Below are positions 5,655 through 59,597 of a stretch of DNA of 64,000 nucleotides, in pieces. The DNA lies in the NCBI GenBank assembly GCA_013373205.1, contig JABXIG010000015.1, forward strand, positions 62,001 through 126,000, in the 5' to 3' direction. Made by a program: the position numbers and the translations under genes. The notes beneath the pieces are model-generated. The model was not told the origin of the DNA, did no database searches, and worked only from the letters and a program-made list of their open reading frames with translations. Every line of letters starts with the position of its first letter. The first letter of the stretch is position 1. The DNA comes from Methylocystaceae bacterium. Its GTDB lineage: Bacteria > Pseudomonadota > Alphaproteobacteria > Rhodospirillales > Terasakiellaceae.

Positions 5655-5806
5655 TTTTCACTTTCGTCATTCCTGCCAAGGCAGATATCATTTAAATCAC
5701 GCATAAAAGAGCCCAAGAGACCCCTGCCTTCGCAGGGGAACGCAAGCCCTACTGTATCCCTGCAAAGGCAAGGACCTTTGATCTCGTATCAAGTACGGGA
5801 TGACGA
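5655..5806. repeat. Composite palindromic repeat cluster at the 5' end of ydiJ
   Basis: Three short palindromes follow one another: CCTGCCaaGGCAG-type at about 5671-5684, CCCCTGCcttcGCAGGGG at 5721-5738, and a unit at 5757-5806 that on the minus strand reads TCATCCCGTACTTGATACGA followed by a TGCCTTTGCAGGG half. They belong to the same family as the repeats at 14.2, 32.9, 55.2, 58.2 and 59.5 kb. The first copy falls inside the upstream open part of the ydiJ frame. Confidence 0.75.
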
Positions 5807-5963
5807 TAGTGATATAGCCTTCTTCGCAGTTTTTTTAAACAAGAAAAAGGCACCAACACTCCCCAAGATAGATTAATAAAGGGAACAAGGGTGGACTTAG
5901 ACAACATCGATGAGCAGATGCTCTGTTCTTTCCTCCCATTTCGTTCTGCCGTATAAGGAAAAG

Positions 5964-13570: not shown

Positions 13571-14194
13571 ATGAGTATGAATATGCCAGACTTTTCATTG
13601 GAAAACGAGCATGCGGGCCAAGTTTGCGGGATTGATGAGGCCGGACGTGGCCCATGGGCCGGACCTGTGACAGCTGCGGCGGTTATTTTCGACCAATCCA
13701 CTTTGTCACCGGTGCTGGCCCAAAGCCTTAATGATTCAAAGAAGCTGTCAGCTAAAAAACGCGAAGCTTTAATTGACCAGATCAAGGCCGAAAGTATCTG
13801 GGCGGTGGGCGAAGCCAGCGTTGAAGAAATTGATGAACTGAACATCCTGCAAGCCACCTTCCTCGCCATGCGCCGCGCGGTAGCTGGGTTATCAACAAAA
13901 CCGGATTACGCCTTAATCGACGGCAATAAACTCCCGCCCGAACTCGGCGTGCCCGGCCATCCGGTGGTCAAAGGCGACGGCCTCTCCTGTTCCATCGCGG
14001 CGGCTTCCATCATCGCCAAAGTCACCCGCGATCAGCAAATGGCAAAACTGGCTGAACAGTTTCCGGGTTATGGCTGGGAGAAAAACGCCGGCTACGGCGT
14101 GAAACTGCATCAAGAAGGCCTCGCCCAGCACGGCGTCTGCCCCCATCACCGCAAAAGCTTTAAACCGATTAAGAAGATTATGGGGATTGAGTAA
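13571..14194 (+). CDS. rnhB: Ribonuclease HII
   Basis: A 207-residue RNase HII, which cuts the RNA strand of RNA-DNA hybrids and removes single ribonucleotides from DNA. Conserved blocks are CGIDEAGRGPWAGPV (catalytic Asp-Glu), LNDSKKLSAKKRE, ALIDGNKLP (third Asp), KGDGLSCSIAAASIIAKVTRD and the late YGVKLHQEGL. The length is normal for the family. The start at 13571 is one of two close methionines (also M at 13577). It is divergent from the TIGR04283 operon and is followed by a repeat copy and the aap terminator. Confidence 0.95.
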   Translation: MSMNMPDFSLENEHAGQVCGIDEAGRGPWAGPVTAAAVIFDQSTLSPVLAQSLNDSKKLSAKKREALIDQIKAESIWAVGEASVEEIDELNILQATFLAMRRAVAGLSTKPDYALIDGNKLPPELGVPGHPVVKGDGLSCSIAAASIIAKVTRDQQMAKLAEQFPGYGWEKNAGYGVKLHQEGLAQHGVCPHHRKSFKPIKKIMGIE

Positions 14195-30462: not shown

Positions 30463-32858
30463 AATTCACTTATAGCTGGCTGCTTGAGCACCTCGACACA
30501 GATAAAACCTTTGACGAAATCGTTGATAAACTCTCCATGATCGGCCTTGAGGTCGAAGGCGTGGAAGACCGTTCCAAAGGTCTGGAAACGTTCAAGATCG
30601 CGGAAATCGTTTCTGCTGAAAAACACCCGGATGCCGACAAGCTGAAAGTCTTGAAAGTAAACGACGGGGAAAAAGAATATGATGTGGTCTGCGGTGCGCC
30701 CAATGCACGCGCCGGACTCAAAGGTGTATTTGCCACATCCGGTTCTTACATCCCCGGTCTGGACGTAACCCTTAAGCCCACAAAAATCCGGGGCGTTCCC
30801 TCTGAAGGCATGATGATGTCCGAAGCAGAAATGAACCTGTCTGAAGATCACGACGGGATCGTTGATCTGCCTGCGGATGTGGAAGTTGGCGCACGCGCTG
30901 TAGACGTGATGGGCTTAACCGATCCGATCGTCGAAATCGCCATCACCCCCAATCGTGGGGATTGTGCAGGCGTGCGTGGTATTGCACGTGATCTGGCTGC
31001 GGCTGGATATGGCACGCTAAAATCTATCAATACTGATCCGGTTGCGGGTGCTTATGAAAGCCCGATCAAGGTCAATATTGCCGATACAAAAGCCTGTCCG
31101 CAGTTTGCCGGGCGCTATATCCGTGGTGTAAAAAATGGCCCATCCCCCAAATGGCTGCAAGAAAAGCTATTGGCCGTGGGCTTGCGTCCCATCTCTGCCC
31201 TTGTGGATGTAACTAACTATTTCTCCCAAGGTCTGTGCCGCCCCTTGCACGTGTTTGATGCGGATAAACTGAACGGTAACATCAATGTACGTCTGGCAAC
31301 AGAAGGCGAAACCCTTCTCGCGTTGGATGAAAAAGAATACACACTCGACAGCGAAATGACCGTGGTTTGTGATGACACCACACCGCACGCGCTTGGTGGT
31401 ATCATGGGCGGTGAAAATTCCGGCTGTACGGATGACACAACCAACGTCTTCCTCGAATGTGCCTTGTTTGATCCTATCCGCACCGCCATGACAGGTCGCA
31501 AACTGGATATCTTATCCGATGCGCGTTACCGCTTTGAACGTGGTGTGGATGAAGCTGGTGTGGTCGAGATGACCGAAATGGCAACACGGCTGATCCTTGA
31601 TCTGTGTGGCGGTGAACCCTCTGAACTTGTTGTCGCTGGTGAAGAGCCCAAATGGCAACGCACCATCACCCTGCGCAAAGCCCGCGTCAAGCAATTGACA
31701 GGCGTGGATGTGCCGGAAAGTGAAATGGTTCGCATTCTTGAGGTTCTTGGCTGCGAGCTTACCGATAAAGGCGATGCGTTTGACGTGCAACCACCCAGCT
31801 GGCGTTCTGACATTGAACTGGAAGCCTGCTTAGTCGAAGAAGTCATCCGTGTTTATGGCTATGAACATATCGAAGAAGTCTCTTTGGTACGTGAAACCAA
31901 CCTGCCACAAGTCGCTTTGACGCCTATGCAGCAAAAACGCGATGCGGCACGCCGCACACTGGTTGCACGTGGCGTTTCCGAAGCCGTGACTTACGCCTTC
32001 TTGCCAGAAAAACAAGCCAAGCTGTTCGGTTGGACAGACGAAAACCTACGCCTGACAAATCCAATCAGTACTGATCTTGAAATTATGCGCCCCAGCCTGC
32101 TGCCAAACCTTCTGGCGGCTTGTCAGCGCAACAATGATCGTAACATGCCAAACGGCTGCCTGTTCGAGGTTGGGCCACAGTTTGATGGCGATGAAGCCGA
32201 CAAACAGCCCGTCGTGGTTGGTGGTGTGCGCACAGGTCAAACAGGCCCGCGCAACTGGGCGCAAGGACCACGCCGTGTCGATGTGTTTGACGCCAAAGCC
32301 GATGTTCTCGCCGTGCTGGAAGCCGCTGGTGCCAAGGTTGATAGCCTGCAAGTTGATCCGGAAGGCGCACCTGCGCACTATCACCCGGGTCGCTCGGGTG
32401 CTTTGAAACTGGGTCCGAAAAATACGCTGGCTTACTTTGGTGAACTGCACCCCGGTGTTCTGGCCAAGATGGGCTATAAGGGGATTGCGGTTGGGTTTGA
32501 GATTTATATCGATAACATCCCGGCGCCGAAAGCCAAGAAAACGGGGGCCTTGCGTCCACTTCTGGTCCTGTCCCAATTCCAGTCTGTCGAACGCGACTTC
32601 GCCTTTGTGGTCGATAGTGACGTGCCTGCCGCCAAAATCATTCAATCTGCCAAAACCGCAGACAAAAAACTGATCACCGATGCGGCTGTGTTTGATGTTT
32701 ATGAAGGGGATAATATGGAAGAGGGTAAAAAATCCGTCGCCATCACCATCACCCTGCAACCGACCAAAGACACTCTGACGGACGACGAAATCCAAGCCGT
32801 CAGCGACAAGGTCGTCGCAAGCGTTGCCAAAAATACAGGCGGCGAACTCCGCGCTTAA
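30459..32858 (+). CDS. pheT: Phenylalanyl-tRNA synthetase beta subunit
   Basis: A 799-residue partner of PheS. The N-terminal tRNA-binding (EMAP-like) domain contains [16 protein letters not shown] and [17 protein letters not shown]; the B3/B4 editing region holds [19 protein letters not shown]; the B5 domain, a catalytic-like core with [12 protein letters not shown], and a C-terminal FDX-ACB anticodon-binding domain (about 705-799, [18 protein letters not shown]) complete it. The length is normal. It is the end of the operon; a repeat cluster follows. Confidence 0.98.
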
Positions 32859-32867
32859 GGAAAGACA

Positions 32868-32980
32868 CTGTGCCCCTGCGAAAGCAGGGGCCTTTTTACG
32901 ATTGAGTATAATGTTTATAAGATTCCTGCTTCCGCAGGAAAACAGGTCTCACTTTGTCACCCCGCAACATGTGCGGGTTA
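32868..32980. repeat. Three-hairpin composite palindromic repeat after pheT
   Basis: CCCCTGCgaaaGCAGGGG (32873-32890), TTCCTGCttccGCAGGAA (32923-32940) and CCCGCA/TGCGGG (32961-32977) follow one another. The first two stems carry GAAA and TTCC loops, that is, they lie in opposite orientation, like paired REP units. The first stem may also serve as a terminator for pheT because CTTTTT follows it. Confidence 0.8.
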
Positions 32981-32995
32981 CGAATCTATAAACAC

Positions 32996-49347: not shown

Positions 49348-51033
49348 ATGTTTAATAATATCTCCATTACCACAAAATCACTGATCGCCCCATTGGTAGC
49401 CTGTGCAATGTTGTTGGTTATCACATTTTCTGCGTTCATCAATTACACGACAAGCCAGAAACAGATAGAAAATTCATCCCATGCCACCCAGACTGTGAAT
49501 GATGCCAAAAGTCTGGTCATTACCATGGCGCAGGCTCATGCCTCCCTTTTTAGAACCGTAAGCTGGCAACAGGCCCAAGTGGATGGGGAAAAAGTGGCAG
49601 AATCCACAGAACAGGCCAAAACCAAAATTAAAAGTACCATAAACCAGTTCAAGAAACTGGACTTGTCTTTGATCCAGAAAGACCCAAAAGAAATTCAGAA
49701 AATTGAAGACGAAATTAAAAACTATCAAAAAATTTCCCTTGAAACTCTGGACACCATCGCTATCGACACCTTCTTGGCAACTATGTTGATGACCGATGCC
49801 CATTATGTATTTGAAGACCTGAGTGCTAAAATCGAAGGATTATCCAGCCTCATCCAACAAAAAAGTGCAGAGCTGAATGCGAAGATGATCGCAAATCAAA
49901 AGACAGCCTTTTTAACCTCACTGATCATATCTGCCTTTGCCATTGTCTTATCCATCGTCTTTGCCATTATGCTGTCCAAAGCCATCTCCAAACCGGTTAA
50001 TCAAATGACCGAAGTGATGACCCGTTTGGCAGAAGGAAATCTGGATGTGGACGTTGAAGGAACGACACGCGGAGATGAAGTCGGTCGTATCGCCCAAGCC
50101 GTTCTTGTCTTTAAAGAAAATGCCATTGAACGCGAGCGCATGCACGAAGAAGACCGCAAAAACCAGGAAGCCAATGCCCTTCGCCAACAGAAGTTGATTG
50201 AATTGACAAATGGTTTTGACAGCGCCATCACCAGCGTTATCGAAGCCGTGATGGGTGCCGTTCATGACCTGCATACAGCAGCCGATAACCTGTCCAGCAC
50301 GGCTGAAAAAACATCCGCACAAACAGCCAATGTATCAGAAGCCACCAACAGTGCCTCAGAAAATGTGCAGACGGTTTCTTCAGCAACGACCGAACTCAGC
50401 AGCTCTATTCAGGAAATCAGCTCACAAGTCTCGCGCGCCTCGCAAGTCTCCCAAGAAGCTGTGGGGGAGGCACGCGACACCAATGAGAATATAGGCCAGC
50501 TTGCCAATGCCGCTGACCGTATTGGCGAAGTCATCAACCTCATTCGTGACATTGCCGATCAAACCAACCTTCTGGCGCTAAACGCAACCATTGAATCAGC
50601 CCGTGCAGGGGAAGCTGGCAAAGGGTTTGCCGTTGTGGCAAGCGAAGTCAAAAACCTTGCTAACCAAACCGGACGCGCTACTGAAGAAATCGCCAGCCAG
50701 ATCGAAAGCATCCAAAGCGAAACACACCGCGCCGTCGATTCCATTCAAGGGATTTCCGGCACCATTTCATCTATCAGCGAGCTTTCCTTAAGCATTGCCG
50801 GGGCCATTGAACAACAAACCGCGGCCACAGATGAAATCGCGCGCAATGTGGAAAATGCATCCGATGGCACCAACCGGGTTTCCAGTAATATCTCGGGGGT
50901 TGCAAAAGCCGCAGAAGAAACCGGGGTCATGGCCTCGACCGTCTATAATTCTGCCACAGACCTGAAAGAACGTGCGGAACACTTGAAGCAAACTGTGGAA
51001 GATTTCTTAAACGCCGTGCGTGCGATCAGATAA
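49348..51033 (+). CDS. Methyl-accepting chemotaxis protein, helical-bundle type
   Basis: A 561-residue transmembrane chemoreceptor. TM1 at about 11-32, a helical periplasmic region (33-185), TM2 about 188-211, HAMP (212-265), then the signalling domain with the hairpin tip [20 protein letters not shown] (Ser where most have Ala). Start ATG at 49348 has AAAGG upstream; the frame opens at 49294. It sits directly downstream of the secreted Cache protein. Its last 8 bp overlap the cyuA-like gene. It should dock CheA/CheW, none of which is encoded here. Confidence 0.92.
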
Positions 51034-52666: not shown

Positions 52667-55204
52667 GTGAATATGAAACTCTCAACCAAATTGCCACTGG
52701 TAATCATTGGCCTGTCCATCCTTGCCGTCTTGATTACCGGCGTCATCTCGTTCACACGCTCAGAGCACGCCTTGGAACAAGCTGCTTTCAGTAAACTCGA
52801 AGCCGTGCAGGAAGCCCGCATTGCAGAGCTTGAAAACAACCTTCATGCCATTCAGGAAGATTTACGCATCATTGCAACCAACGACATGGCCATTGATGCT
52901 GTCACGGAAATAGAAACAGCTTATGAAGAATTAGGCGATCAAGCTGATCAGACCGTACGTGAGCTCTATATTACCCAAAACCCCAACAAGGTCGGTGAAA
53001 AAGATAAACTGGTTGATGCTAAAGACGGATCGCACTACAGCAAAGCACATGCCCATTATCACCCTTGGTTTTCACAGCTGATGAAAAGCCGTGGTTATTA
53101 CGATATTTTCCTGGTCAATGAATTTGGCGAAGTGGTTTATACCGTCTTTAAAGAAGATGATTTCGGTACCAACCTAAAGGATGGGAAATGGTCCAAAACA
53201 GATTTGGCCGTCGTTTATAAACAGGTCGAAAACAAACCTTTAGGCACAGTCGCTTTTAGTGACTTTGCCCCTTACGGCCCAAGTCACAATGCGCCAGCAA
53301 GCTTTATGGCCACCCCGCTTTATGAACATGATGGGGAATTTCATGGTGCCCTTATCTTTCAGATGCCCATTCAAAAAATCAATGCGGTCATGCAAAATAG
53401 TATCGGCATGGGCGAAACGGGTGAAGCCTACCTTGTCGGTCAAGACCACTTCATGAGAAGTGATTCACGTTTTTCAAGCGAGAGCACAATCCTAAAACAA
53501 AAGGTCGAAACAGAAGCCGTCAAACTTGCCTTATCCGGTAAAGATGATGTTATCGACAGCACGGATTATCATGGCTCACACGTTCTTGCTGCCTATGGAC
53601 CAATCACCTTTAAAGGTGTCACCTGGGCCGTCATTGCAGAAATTGACATGGAAGAAGTCGACATTCCCGTCTTAGAACTGCGCACTGTTTTAATGATTGT
53701 CATTGTGTTAATCGCCGCAGGCGTCGGGCTTATTGGCTATTTCCTATCTCGTTCTATTTCCAAACCCATCAATGCCATGACCGATGTGATGGGGCAACTG
53801 GCTCAGGACAATCTGTCAGTTGATGTGCCTTATACAGACAAAAGCGACGAAATCGGTGAAATGGCCGGATCCGTCCATCACTTTAAAGACCAAATGATCA
53901 AAGTGAAAAAACTGGAAGAAGAACAGGAAGAACAAAAACGCAAAGCCGATGCCCAGCGTAAGGCCGCCATGATCCAGATGGCCGACTCGTTTGAAGCAAA
54001 TGTCGGACAAGTCGTGCAAACGGTAACGTCAGCTGCCACCGAACTACAAGCATCCTCCAGCCAGATGTCGGCAACTGCAACGGAAACAAGTTCGCAGGCT
54101 ACCACCGTCGCAGCAGCGGCAGAAGAAGCCTCAGCCAACGTCGAAACCGTGGCGTCTGCTGCCGAAGAACTGGCCAGTTCCGAAGGTGAAATTAGCCGCC
54201 ATGTCCATAAATCATCTGAAGTTGCCGATCACGCCGCCCATCAGGCAGAAGAAACAAAGGCCACTGTCGAAAATATGGTGCAACAAGTTGGTAAAATCGG
54301 CGCCGTTGTGAGCCTGATTTCCGATATTGCCGAACAGACCAACCTTCTGGCCCTGAACGCAACCATTGAAGCCGCGCGCGCAGGTGATGCGGGCAAAGGC
54401 TTTGCCGTTGTGGCAAGTGAAGTCAAGAACCTGGCAAACCAAACCGCCAAAGCTACTGATGAAATCGCCAAACAAATCGGTGAAGTTCAGTCTGTCACCC
54501 ATGAAGCGGCGACAGCCATTTCCAGCATTGGCGACACCATTACCGAGATCGACCAGATTGCCAATTCCATCGCTGTTGCTGTGGAAGAACAAACCGCAGC
54601 CACAGGTGAAATTGCCCGCAATGTGGAACAGGCATCTCAAGGAACATCCGAAGTTTCCATCAACATCCAGTCTGTTGAACAAGCTGCCGGTGAAACCGGA
54701 GCTGCCGCCACCCAGATTTCCAACGCCTCTTCTGACTTGTCACAGCAAGCTGAAATCTTACGCGAAGAAGTCAAACGCTTCCTTGATCAGGTGCGCAGCG
54801 ATAATTCAACCATGAAGCTTATGGAATGGGATAGCAGCCTTGAAACCGGCAATCCTACCATTGATACGGAACATCAGGAATTCATTAAGATGCTGAACAC
54901 TGCCTATTCGCAAATGATGTCCGGCAAAGGCACTGAAATGGTTGATGAAATGTTGGATAATTTCTTCACCTACATGCAAACCCACCTTGCCCATGAAGAA
55001 ACTGAAATGCAGAAAGTGGGCTATCCTGAATTTGCTGCCCATAAAAAATCCCACGATGACTTTATGGACAAGCTCACCGCCATCAAATCCCAGCATGATG
55101 CAGGAAACGACGTCAGCAGTGATCTATTAAACTATATGGCCAGCTGGGTGAAAGAACATACGATGCAATATGACAAACTGTTTGTCGAATTCATCTCTGA
55201 ATAA
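52667..55204 (+). CDS. Methyl-accepting chemotaxis protein fused to a C-terminal bacteriohemerythrin
   Basis: An 845-residue chemoreceptor. TM1 about 8-29, a long periplasmic Cache region (30-340) with [20 protein letters not shown] and the second half [22 protein letters not shown]2 about 342-362, HAMP, a signalling domain with [20 protein letters not shown], and from residue 716 a complete hemerythrin. Its diiron ligands are all visible: H736, H773, E777, H792, H796, H831, D836. Such domains bind O2, as in the DcrH chemoreceptor of Desulfovibrio. Aerotaxis or redox taxis is the probable role. GTG start with a good ribosome site. Followed by a strong terminator. Confidence 0.94.
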
Positions 55205-55212
55205 TCCAAGTC

Positions 55213-55229
55213 CCCCTGCTTACACAGGG
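55213..55229. repeat. Palindromic repeat copy, degenerate
   Basis: CCCTG-cttaca-CAGGG at 55214-55229 follows the hemerythrin receptor stop. It is a degenerate version of the CCTGCtttcGCAGG unit. Confidence 0.5.
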
Positions 55230-55242
55230 AATAGTATCCATA

Positions 55243-55298: not shown

Positions 55299-57491
55299 TT
55301 ACTCACCAGCAGCCATATAGTCCGGCATCCAGTTCTCATGCAGGTCTTTCAGTTCAGCAACGCCAATACCTTCACCGCCCAGAACAACGTCTGAACCACC
55401 TGTTTGACCGATGATGTTAGCTGTAACACCTGCTTCACCAGCTTTAACGACAAAGGCATCAGCTTTATCCGCATCCACCGTAACGATATATCGGCCTTGG
55501 TCTTCACCGAACAGCCATGCATAGGCCTGTTCAACATTAGCAGGAATATCAATGGAACAACCAATGTTGCCTGCCATGGCCATTTCAGCAACCGCAACTG
55601 CAATCCCGCCATCAGAGATATCATGGCAAGTATCAACGCCGCACAGAATTTCGGCACGCACAAAGTTACCAGTCTTGAGTTCAGCTTCAAGGTCCACAAG
55701 TGGTGGGGCACCTTCTTCACGACCGCAGATAATCTCGAGGTAGCGCGAGGCACCTAACCAACCCTTGGTTTCACCCAAAACGATGATCGCTTGACCGTCT
55801 TTCTTGAAAGCAACAGATGCCGCCTTGTCGATATCCTTGATCAAACCAACAGCCCCTAATGTCGGGGTTGGCAAGATGCCTTGACCATTGGTTTCGTTAT
55901 ACAAAGACACGTTACCAGACACGATCGGGTAATCCAATGCGCGGCACGCTTCACCGATCCCTTCGATACAGCCGACAATCTGACCCATAATCTCTGGGCG
56001 TTCCGGGTTACCGAAGTTCAAGTTATCGGTCACCGCCAATGGCGTTGCGCCAACGGCTGTGATGTTACGATAAGTTTCCGCAACGATCTGTTTACCGCCT
56101 TCATGCGGGTCTTGGTAACAATAACGCGGGGAACAATCAGATGTCACCGCAATGCCTTTGTTGGTTTCATGCACACGTACAATGGCGCTATCCCCACCGG
56201 GACGGCCCACTGTGTCGCCCATCACCATATGGTCATACTGTTCCCAGATCCACCGTTTGGAGGCAAAGTTCGGATGCGCGGTCAATGTTTTCAGCGCATC
56301 AATGCGGCCAACATTGCTTTCAACGCTTGCGGCGTCAATTTCGGCTGGACGTTCGGTTTTTACCCAAGGGCGATCATATTCGGGTGAGGCCAGCGCCAGC
56401 GGATCAATGGGCAGATCACCCACGACTTCGCCATGCCATTTCAGAACCATATTGCCTGTATCAGTCAGCTTCCCGATGACAGCAAATTCAAGGTCCCATT
56501 TGTCCATGATGGCTTTGGCTTCGGCTTCCATACCCGGTTTCAAAATCACCAGCATACGTTCTTGGGATTCTGACAACATCAGTTCATATGGCGTCATACC
56601 TTCTTCGCGCATAGGCACTTGATCAAGTTCAAGTTCCACACCAACGCCGCCTTTGGACGCCATTTCGAAGGAAGAAGAGGTCAAGCCCGCCGCACCCATA
56701 TCCTGGATCGCAACGATAGAGCCTGTTTGCATCAACTCAAGGGTGGCTTCGATCACCAGTTTTTCGGTGAACGGATCGCCCACTTGAACAGTAGGTCGTT
56801 TTTCTTCGCTATCTTCGGTAAATTCCGCCGATGCCATGGTCGCGCCGTGAATACCGTCGCGCCCTGTTTTGGAACCGAAGTAAACAACCGGGTTGCCCAC
56901 ACCAGCCGCAGCAGAATAGAAAATATTATCCGCATCGGCCAGACCAACAGCCATGGCATTTACAAGGTTGTTGCCGTTATAAGAACTGTGGAATTCACAT
57001 TCCCCAGCCACAGTCGGTACACCCACGCAGTTGCCGTAACCAGAAATACCAGACACAACGCCGGACACCAGATGGCGAGTCTTTTCATGATCCACATCGC
57101 CAAAACGCAGCGCGTTTAGGTTACAGATCGGACGCGCACCCATGGTAAAGACGTCACGCAAGATACCGCCGACACCGGTCGCCGCACCTTGGTACGGTTC
57201 GATGTAAGACGGGTGGTTGTGGCTTTCCATTTTGAAGATGATCGCTTGGTTATCTTCAATATCAATAACGCCAGCGTTTTCACCCGGACCACAGATCACC
57301 CATGGGGCTTCGGTCGGCAAGGTCTTCAACCATTTTTTGGAAGATTTATAAGAACAGTGCTCTGACCACATGACAGAGAAAATGCCAAGCTCATTCAGGT
57401 TTGGCTCACGCCCCATGATCTCAAGGCAAAGCTTCCATTCGTCTTCAGAAAGACCATGTTCAGCAACGATTTCAGGTGTAATCTCACTCAT
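55299..57491 (-). CDS. purL: Phosphoribosylformylglycinamidine synthase, large subunit (PurL)
   Basis: A 730-residue short-form PurL, which works with PurQ and PurS to turn FGAR into FGAM in purine synthesis. [40 protein letters not shown] and [19 protein letters not shown] are diagnostic. It is last in purC-purS-purQ-purL (minus strand), overlapping purQ by 4 bp. Confidence 0.97.
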
Positions 57492-58177
57492 GACAGCGCC
57501 TCCACCAGTGCGTCAAACAGGGGCTTGCCATCGGTCCCGCCGAGCTGTGCATCACACAGACGTTCCGGGTGCGGCATCATGCCCAATACATTTTTATTTT
57601 CGTTCAGGATGCCCGCAATGTTGTTGCGTGATCCATTGATGTTCGCTTCTTCAGAAACATTGCCTGCTTCGTCGCAATAGCGGAACGCCACCTGATTGTT
57701 GTCTTCGATAGATTTAAGAACATCGTCTGCGGCAAAATAGTTCCCATCATGATGCGCCACCGGAATGCGGATGGCCTGGCCTGCACTATATTTGCTAGTG
57801 AAATCGGTGGAGGCGTTTTCGACTTTCAAATGCACATCCTTACAGATGAATTTCAGCTTGGCATTGCGCATCAAAACACCCGGCAGCAAGCCTGCTTCTG
57901 TTAGGATTTGAAAACCGTTACACACACCAAGGACACGCACGCCTGCGTTGGCTTTTTTTACCACTTCGCGCATGATGGGGGAATGGGCAGACATCGCGCC
58001 ACAACGCAAGTAATCCCCGTATGAGAACCCGCCCGGTACAGCAATAAAATCAACGTCCGGCAGTTCGGTTTCTTTATGCCAGACCATTTCGGGCTTGCGG
58101 CCCAAAGAATGTTCAATCCCGACCATCATGTCACGGTCACAGTTTGAACCCGGAAAAACGATTACAGCGGCTTTCAT
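57488..58177 (-). CDS. purQ: FGAM synthase glutaminase subunit (PurQ)
   Basis: A 229-residue class I glutamine amidotransferase. The nucleophile is the Cys of [19 protein letters not shown]; the oxyanion region is [16 protein letters not shown]; the C-terminal [18 protein letters not shown] holds the His-Glu pair. It supplies ammonia to PurL. The gap to purS (85 bp) contains a two-stem palindromic repeat. Confidence 0.97.
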
Positions 58178-58200
58178 TGAAAGACCTCTTCCTTTACTTT

Positions 58201-58255
58201 GTGCACCTGTGAAAACAAGTGCCTCTGAGGTTCCGCATCAAGTGCGGAACACAAA
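58201..58255. repeat. Two-stem palindromic repeat inside the pur operon
   Basis: CACCTGTgaaaACAAGTG (58204-58221) and TTCCGCA-tcaag-TGCGGAA (58231-58249) lie between purS and purQ. It is the clearest copy with both modules of the family, and it is inserted within an operon. Confidence 0.8.
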
Positions 58256-58262
58256 CGTTCTA

Positions 58263-58502
58263 TTACTCGACGATTTCGACGTCAAAGTTTTCGATCACTG
58301 TGTTGGCCAGCAGTTGCTTACACATGTTTTCGATATTTTCTTTGGTCTTTTCAGCCGCGTCAGTCAGTTCCAGTTCGATATATTTACCGATACGAACTTC
58401 ACCAACACCATCAAAACCAAGGGTGCCAAGCGCATGTTCTACGGCTTTGCCTTGGGGGTCGAGTACGCCGTTTTTAAGGGTTACGTGGACTTTAGCTTTC
58501 AC
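58263..58502 (-). CDS. purS: FGAM synthase PurS subunit
   Basis: A 79-residue protein that bridges PurQ and PurL. KVHVTLKNGVLDPQGKAVEH and the late CKQLLANTVIENFDVEIVE match PurS. Its presence is why PurL here is the short form. It lies 73 bp after purC on the minus strand. Confidence 0.96.
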   Translation of the reverse strand: MKAKVHVTLKNGVLDPQGKAVEHALGTLGFDGVGEVRIGKYIELELTDAAEKTKENIENMCKQLLANTVIENFDVEIVE

Positions 58503-59343: not shown

Positions 59344-59597
59344 GGCAATCATCCTGCTATATGGAAAAAGTGGCCTTCGTATAGCAGGAGTCCGGGTGCG
59401 TAGCAACGATTGATTTTAACCTTGGCTATATGGTGTTTTTATTATGATCCGGTTAGCAAAATCAGCTGGTAACAGTGTAAGACATCCACCCGTTCACCTG
59501 CGAAAGCAGGTGTCTCTTTTGAAACAGTCACTGTACCAATCAGATCCCTGCTTTCGCAGGGAAACAGGAGACAAAACCTTTTAGAATTTAATAAGGG
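59344..59597. repeat. Palindromic repeat pair upstream of purC, inverted arrangement
   Basis: CACCTGCgaaaGCAGGTG (59495-59512) and CCCTGCtttcGCAGGG (59546-59561) are in opposite orientation with about 33 bp between, then GAAACAGGAG. The arrangement equals that at 32.9 kb. The remainder of this gap shows no gene. Confidence 0.8.

Follow-up and report, generated by a model that had tools for sequence, protein, structure and literature searches.

The stretch of DNA analysed here, 64,000 nucleotides in its full length and called the window below (G000:C24:62001-126000), comes from the genome of a marine bacterium that comprises 4,086,950 bases in 69 contigs. Within it, the gene pheT, identified by its domains, ends at 32858 and is followed by a pair of facing hairpin arms and a further, separate hairpin (Table 1). 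The nearest relatives of this pheT in the genome collection belong to Terasakiella pusilla (92%) and T. brassicae (88%), and the host is therefore a Terasakiella species. Behind pheT in T. pusilla and T. brassicae, no element is found. The MAG HF-Dia15 has a further palindrome pair downstream of pheT (L073, after 2322), whose stems read CTGGCGTAGGCCAG and whose tags are of the GTCA type.

Palindromic arms in the window

Arms of the same family recur elsewhere in the window. One follows the gene for RNase HII (13571-14191; Pfam PF01351), and two lie in the pur operon, in which purQ (57488-58177, minus strand), purC and purL are recognised by their Pfam domains and the translated open reading frame at 58263-58502 (minus strand) is one that we take to be purS. 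The left arm behind pheT is the best match to the covariance model R1 among the genome matches listed, and a separate terminator scan calls its positions 32872-32891 terminator-like on the plus strand. The degenerate arm near 55.2 kb is absent among the R1 matches listed. The window also holds a 184-nt direct repeat of 80% identity (50521-50704 and 54296-54479), the second copy of which lies within a chemotaxis-receptor gene.

Table 1. Arms and related palindromes in the window, in window coordinates.
Feature	Position	Strand	Basis
Arm of back-to-back (TT) pair	5714..5743	-	R1 match C24:67714-67743; PWM
Second arm of the back-to-back pair	5752..5781	+	R1 match C24:67752-67781; PWM
CGTC-REP-type palindrome (module 2), reads CGTCATCCCGTACTTGATACGAGAT on the minus strand	5783..5807	-	Sequence; type by comparison with PMC3733652
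Single arm directly past the RNase HII stop codon	14198..14227	+	R1 match C24:76198-76227
Facing (HH) pair, left arm, 9 nt past the pheT stop codon	32868..32897	+	R1 match
Right arm of the same pheT-side facing pair	32916..32945	-	R1 match C24:94916-94945
Separate hairpin GTCACCCCGCAACATGTGCGGGTTA (module 2), CGTC-REP type	32957..32981	.	Sequence, fold
Single arm, degenerate (core 55215-55228), behind an MCP-type gene that ends at 55204	55206..55236	-	Core match
Arm inside the pur operon, between purS and purQ	58199..58228	+	R1 match C24:120199-120228
Partner arm with another stem (CCGCACTTGATGCGG), tag and flanks unchanged	58230..58253	-	Six-species alignment
Facing pair in the gap from purC to a TerB-domain gene, left arm	59490..59519	+	R1 match C24:121490-121519
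Facing pair in the gap from purC to a TerB-domain gene, right arm	59538..59567	-	R1 match C24:121538-121567

The original prediction described these elements as a dispersed family of intergenic palindromes built from two modules. The first of these, CCTGCGAAAGCAGG, has 7 copies in the window at up to 2 mismatches, compared with 0.58 expected, and none of 100 shuffles of the window attains this count. The copies lie at 5723, 14205, 32875, 32925, 55215, 59497 and 59547, and those at 32.9 and 59.5 kb form opposite-facing pairs just as described. A partner arm at 5759-5772 had been overlooked, and it makes the 5.7 kb element a back-to-back pair. The second module gives a weaker signal than was believed, with 6 matches at 3 mismatches, compared with 2.08 expected, a count equalled by 3 of 100 shuffles, and it is a mixture of two things. 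At 58.2 kb it does belong to the family, as a partner arm with a different stem (tag TGTG, flanks TT/AA, tail CCTC), whereas the matches at 5.78 and 32.96 kb are palindromes in their own right, of the CGTC-REP type.

Structure, abundance and pairing of the arms

The consensus of the arm, taken from a gapless alignment of 74 hits with at most one mismatch, spans 30 nt and consists of a TGTK tag (TGTT or TGTG at -6 to -3), a stem of 7-8 bp in the form NNCCTGC-GAAA-GCAGGNN, and a T-rich tail, YCTCTTT. The conserved unit thus exceeds the first module, in that tag and tail are conserved as well. The loop is 4 nt long and mostly GAAA. At the foot of the stem, two variable bases pair with the two variable bases opposite, and the first stem pairs vary among TT/AA, TC/GA, CA/TG and CC/GG, with compensation at the base dinucleotide; self-pairing at these bases is complete in 144 of 158 arms. 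Among 43 arms chosen by hand from the outputs, the 7-bp stem is lengthened in 25 by an eighth basal pair (G-C, U-A, A-U or G-U), and 92.2% of stem cells are paired, compared with 80.9% after shuffling. Changes on both sides of a pair occupy 54 cells of this sample as opposed to 19.2 in shuffled arms, a value that none of 500 shuffles attains, and shifting the pairing register abolishes the signal.

The repeat family is real and genome-wide. The first module occurs in 74 copies with at most one mismatch, compared with 3 for the reversed-pattern control, and R1 finds at least 147 arms in the host genome at E ≤ 1, a lower bound from 150 scored candidates, 125 of them at E ≤ 0.001. A PWM built from the hits recognised 116 arms in 263,746 bases in an earlier pass, as against 8 in 20 shuffled copies combined (0.4 per copy), and, at a lower threshold, 158 arms in 313,184 bases of hit surroundings and samples. 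The shuffles, the reversed-pattern control and the covariance model all place the family far above chance and well beyond its copies in the window, which upholds the prediction of a dispersed family. At E ≤ 0.1, R1 finds 16, 3, 6, 1 and 15 arms in five congeners and none in 20 genomes of other families in the same order.

Among neighbours within 120 nt there are 55 facing pairs (HH), 11 back-to-back pairs (TT) and no tandem pairs (HT), so that the inverted pairing likened in advance to REPs and BIMEs is also found genome-wide. In facing pairs the tags lie outside and the cores are 18-42 nt apart, most often 35-36. Within such a pair the arms usually differ, since they have the variable dinucleotide in common in only 4 of 55 pairs, compared with 12.3 expected (p 0.002). 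Folded as RNA, 33 of the 55 dimers favour a single long hairpin, while 15 retain the two local ones; covariation between the two inner tails of the dimers is not significant (p 0.084). Spacers are weakly alike overall (0.38 identity, compared with a null of 0.32), and in the CA/TC subfamily of 12 dimers the spacers, once oriented, resemble each other more than shuffles do (z 5.1), the closest pair being 88% identical. The relatedness of these spacers indicates that the arms spread in pairs, at a time remote enough for the spacers to drift while the stems were kept. The spread is accordingly old, given that arms were kept by compensatory change and most spacers have drifted.

A different hairpin has multiplied in one congener. 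The genome G005 carries its own family, CGTC-GTCCTCGC-GAAN-GCGGGGAC, in 79 copies, which is represented once in the host and 0 to 5 times in the other four genomes. An example lies at C1:107254-107277; the tails read CTTTTT, and facing pairs often combine CGTCAT- and YGTCGT-type arms. The counts in the host and in G005 thus indicate that each species amplified a different hairpin.

Genomic placement, possible role in termination, and spread

The elements lie at a median distance of 11 nt from stop codons and 75.5 nt from starts. With gene contexts taken from a simple ORF caller rather than from annotation, 92 elements are divided into 44 between convergent genes, 42 between tandem genes, 2 between divergent genes, 3 at edges and one within a called ORF. 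The corresponding background figures (convergent/tandem/divergent) are 12/50/19 in 144 kb of the host and 54/247/87 in 800 kb of G005. With 44 of 88 elements between convergent genes and the median only 11 nt past the stop codon, the suggested link with mRNA ends is supported as regards placement. Many short convergent gaps contain little besides the element.

Intergenic DNA is mostly unalignable between congeners, which makes precise empty sites unreadable, and the comparison with the G005 sample yields 11 element sites with matching flanks. At two of these (C59:305186 and C59:952438), G005 has a classic hairpin and T-run where the host has an arm; the hairpins of the two genomes at C59:952438 can be aligned, and a compensatory change in the stem distinguishes them. 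One is the purS-purQ site, another carries a large insertion in G005, and the remaining 7 have no shared element or are unalignable. The gap between purS and purQ (58178-58262), aligned across six Terasakiella genomes, contains hairpin pairs with changing stems in G000, G005 and G001, a CGTC-type pair in G003, and no hairpin pair in G002 and G004. It is a recurrent palindrome-pair site inside an operon, occupied in 4 of 6 genomes. Here, at the sole operon-internal site inspected, the hairpins are followed on the operon sense strand by CCTC or CCTAGG and no T-run.

A GC hairpin followed by a T-run, as in an intrinsic terminator, is found in part of the arms. Under loose criteria, which also made false calls in 140 of 300 random slices, a terminator is called for 89 of 158 arms when the arm's own strand is read, compared with 17 on the opposite strand and 28 with shuffled tails; under stricter T criteria, 51 of 158 arms pass on their own strand as against 16 on the opposite one. 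Thirty element-holding convergent gaps of 30-130 bp were also searched with the arms masked. Another terminator was then found by strict criteria, which gave false calls in 39 of 300 random slices, in 3 of 30, compared with 26 of 33 G005 convergent gaps of the same size (Fisher p 3e-8), a difference to be read with the scant space that an element leaves in a short gap. Unmasked, 20 of the 30 gaps show a terminator, as do 3 of 5 host gaps that hold no element. In tandem contexts, the T-tails of sense arms (3.98 of 8) are no richer than those of antisense arms (3.70), with p 0.49, or p 0.70 in a paired comparison. Of 16 single arms between convergent genes, 8 point towards the nearer one. Since neither tail nor orientation is biased, selection for termination in one given direction is unsupported.

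The original prediction further noted that such elements are often moved by REP-associated tyrosine transposases (RAYT) and proposed to look for an IS200-like gene. The inverted hairpin pairs, the short unpaired tag and the lack of target duplication all resemble RAYT-moved REPs, and a RAYT-like Y1 protein of 224 aa is encoded in the congener G004 (L149, G004:C218, ORF 1447-2118). However, the host genome, which is 100% complete, has no match to PF01797, the Y1 transposase family to which IS200 and RAYT proteins belong (both of the 2 candidates failed on scoring), and the family is likewise absent from G001, G002 and G003, although the same search was positive in 5 of the 14 genomes used as controls, E. 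coli among them. Moreover, G004 carries the fewest arms among the congeners in spite of its RAYT-like gene, and the tag is TGTK instead of GTAG. Movement of BIME-type REPs by RAYT is therefore very unlikely as an explanation of this family. G005 has two PF01797 proteins, one of them of IS200 size (147 aa).

Other vehicles were considered as well. No target-site duplication was detected among the 55 HH dimers (best z 3.2 in 1,792 combinations of boundary and length), which speaks against a MITE derived from a DDE transposase. A transposon with the arms as its ends found no support when the R1 positions were inspected for arms around a gene-sized stretch, as only ordinary neighbours were seen. 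With regard to phages and plasmids, the 59.5 kb dimer is unmatched in the plasmid and phage collections, and the arm pattern has no match in viral contigs.

Taken together, we favour, with moderate confidence, an old and lineage-specific burst of non-autonomous REP-like dimers that now serve as mRNA 3'-end hairpins and probably as two-way terminators. The elements would have spread once, mainly in the host's species of Terasakiella, presumably in trans by some enzyme, and they have settled or survived just behind stop codons, where they are found. As each arm can fold into a hairpin with a T-rich tail after it on its own strand, a facing pair could act as a two-way intrinsic terminator, or as a 3'-end hairpin, for both flanking genes. 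Judging from anatomy and place, termination would be the likeliest present role. A bolder version, which we put forward tentatively, is that of a mobile two-way terminator: the pairs spread, displaced the native terminators of convergent genes and were kept by compensatory evolution, while in sister species another hairpin from that superfamily was amplified for like places. If the terminator reading is true, mobile DNA would be rewriting the sites where transcription stops, pair by pair among convergent genes.

An alternative possibility is that the elements are neutral or mildly parasitic REPs, whose hairpins serve their own spread and which pile up behind stop codons because they are purged from genes and promoters. 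Purging of insertions elsewhere can indeed produce a location at stop codons, and GTAG and CGTC REPs are placed alike according to PMC3733652. The equal tails of sense and antisense arms and the indifferent orientation of single arms agree with such neutrality, and the large differences in copy number between species, together with the other family amplified in G005, fit selfish bursts. On the other hand, the elements stand where the sole terminator would be in 27 of the 30 short gaps between convergent genes, an orthologous hairpin is retained between species through a compensatory change at C59:952438, and a hairpin pair with changing stems recurs between purS and purQ in 4 of 6 species. We regard this explanation as possible, if doubtful. 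It is quite improbable, by comparison, that the arms are ordinary intrinsic terminators that share a genus-wide CCCTG/CAGGG stem and form no dispersed family. The arm matrix does pick up some G005 terminators, in which the CCTGTGAAAACAGG core is present, yet the 30-nt arm, tag included, exists in more than 100 copies in one species and in only 1-16 in its congeners, the PWM finds 116 arms where shuffles give 0.4, pairing is always inverted, and the spacers of the CA/TC subfamily are related.

Relation to known repeat systems

As inverted pairs of short hairpins that are intergenic and present in many copies, the TGTK elements resemble the GTAG REPs, BIMEs and REPINs, but they differ from those with RAYT in that they have no GTAG tag and their host genome has no Y1 transposase. 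A second likeness is to the bidirectional terminators of Zymomonas mobilis, for which 34% of the ends matched to terminators are placed between genes that converge (PMC7566282); convergent placement and a GC hairpin with a T-rich tail are common to both. Ordinary bidirectional terminators, however, are single hairpins with A- and T-tracts that form no dispersed family, whereas the present element is made of two opposed hairpins that both carry their own T-rich tail. Among open-licence papers, no Terasakiella repeat and no mobile terminator was found.

The closest comparison is with the CGTC REP superfamily (CGTC-1 to CGTC-4), which includes dRS3 of Neisseria and RPE-4 and RPE-6 of Rickettsia (Di Nocera et al., 2013; PMC3733652). 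As described in that study, these REPs have an 8-9 bp stem that nearly always begins with AT, a loop of 4-5 nt, a tail that is mostly CCA, and a CGTC tag with TGTC or CCTC variants allowed, and no known transposase is given for them. HH dimers dominate, TT dimers are rare and HT dimers negligible, and the repeats lie near stop codons and between convergent or unidirectional genes (PMC3733652). Canonical CGTC palindromes are also present in the host, with 28 pattern matches at 24 places, at least 5 of which lie within 25 bp of TGTK arms when compared by eye with the R1 positions. Such clustering is seen, for example, at C19:12368, C53:36477, C56:202412, C59:448134 and C69:88946.

CGTC-type REPs are without a known mobiliser, and Terasakiella offers a clean system for finding one, in which one species has at least 147 arms, its sister has 79 copies of another family, their relatives are nearly free of each, and the first species has no Y1 transposase match. 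A comparison of strains in this genus could show what moves such repeats. Measured against the description of the CGTC REPs, the TGTK family is likewise alphaproteobacterial, with a GC stem, a 4-nt loop of the GAAA type and an unpaired tag at one end of the hairpin; it too forms mostly HH dimers near stop codons. Of transposases, the Y1 class (PF01797) was searched for in the host genome and gave no match. It departs from that description in its tag (TGTK and not CGTC), in its stem, the base of which varies instead of reading AT and which has 7 bp in many arms, and in its tail (YCTCTTT and not CCA). Ultimately, since it differs in tag, stem base and tail and agrees in the other features that could be compared, the family is best regarded as a variant that stands beside the CGTC superfamily rather than as a member of it.
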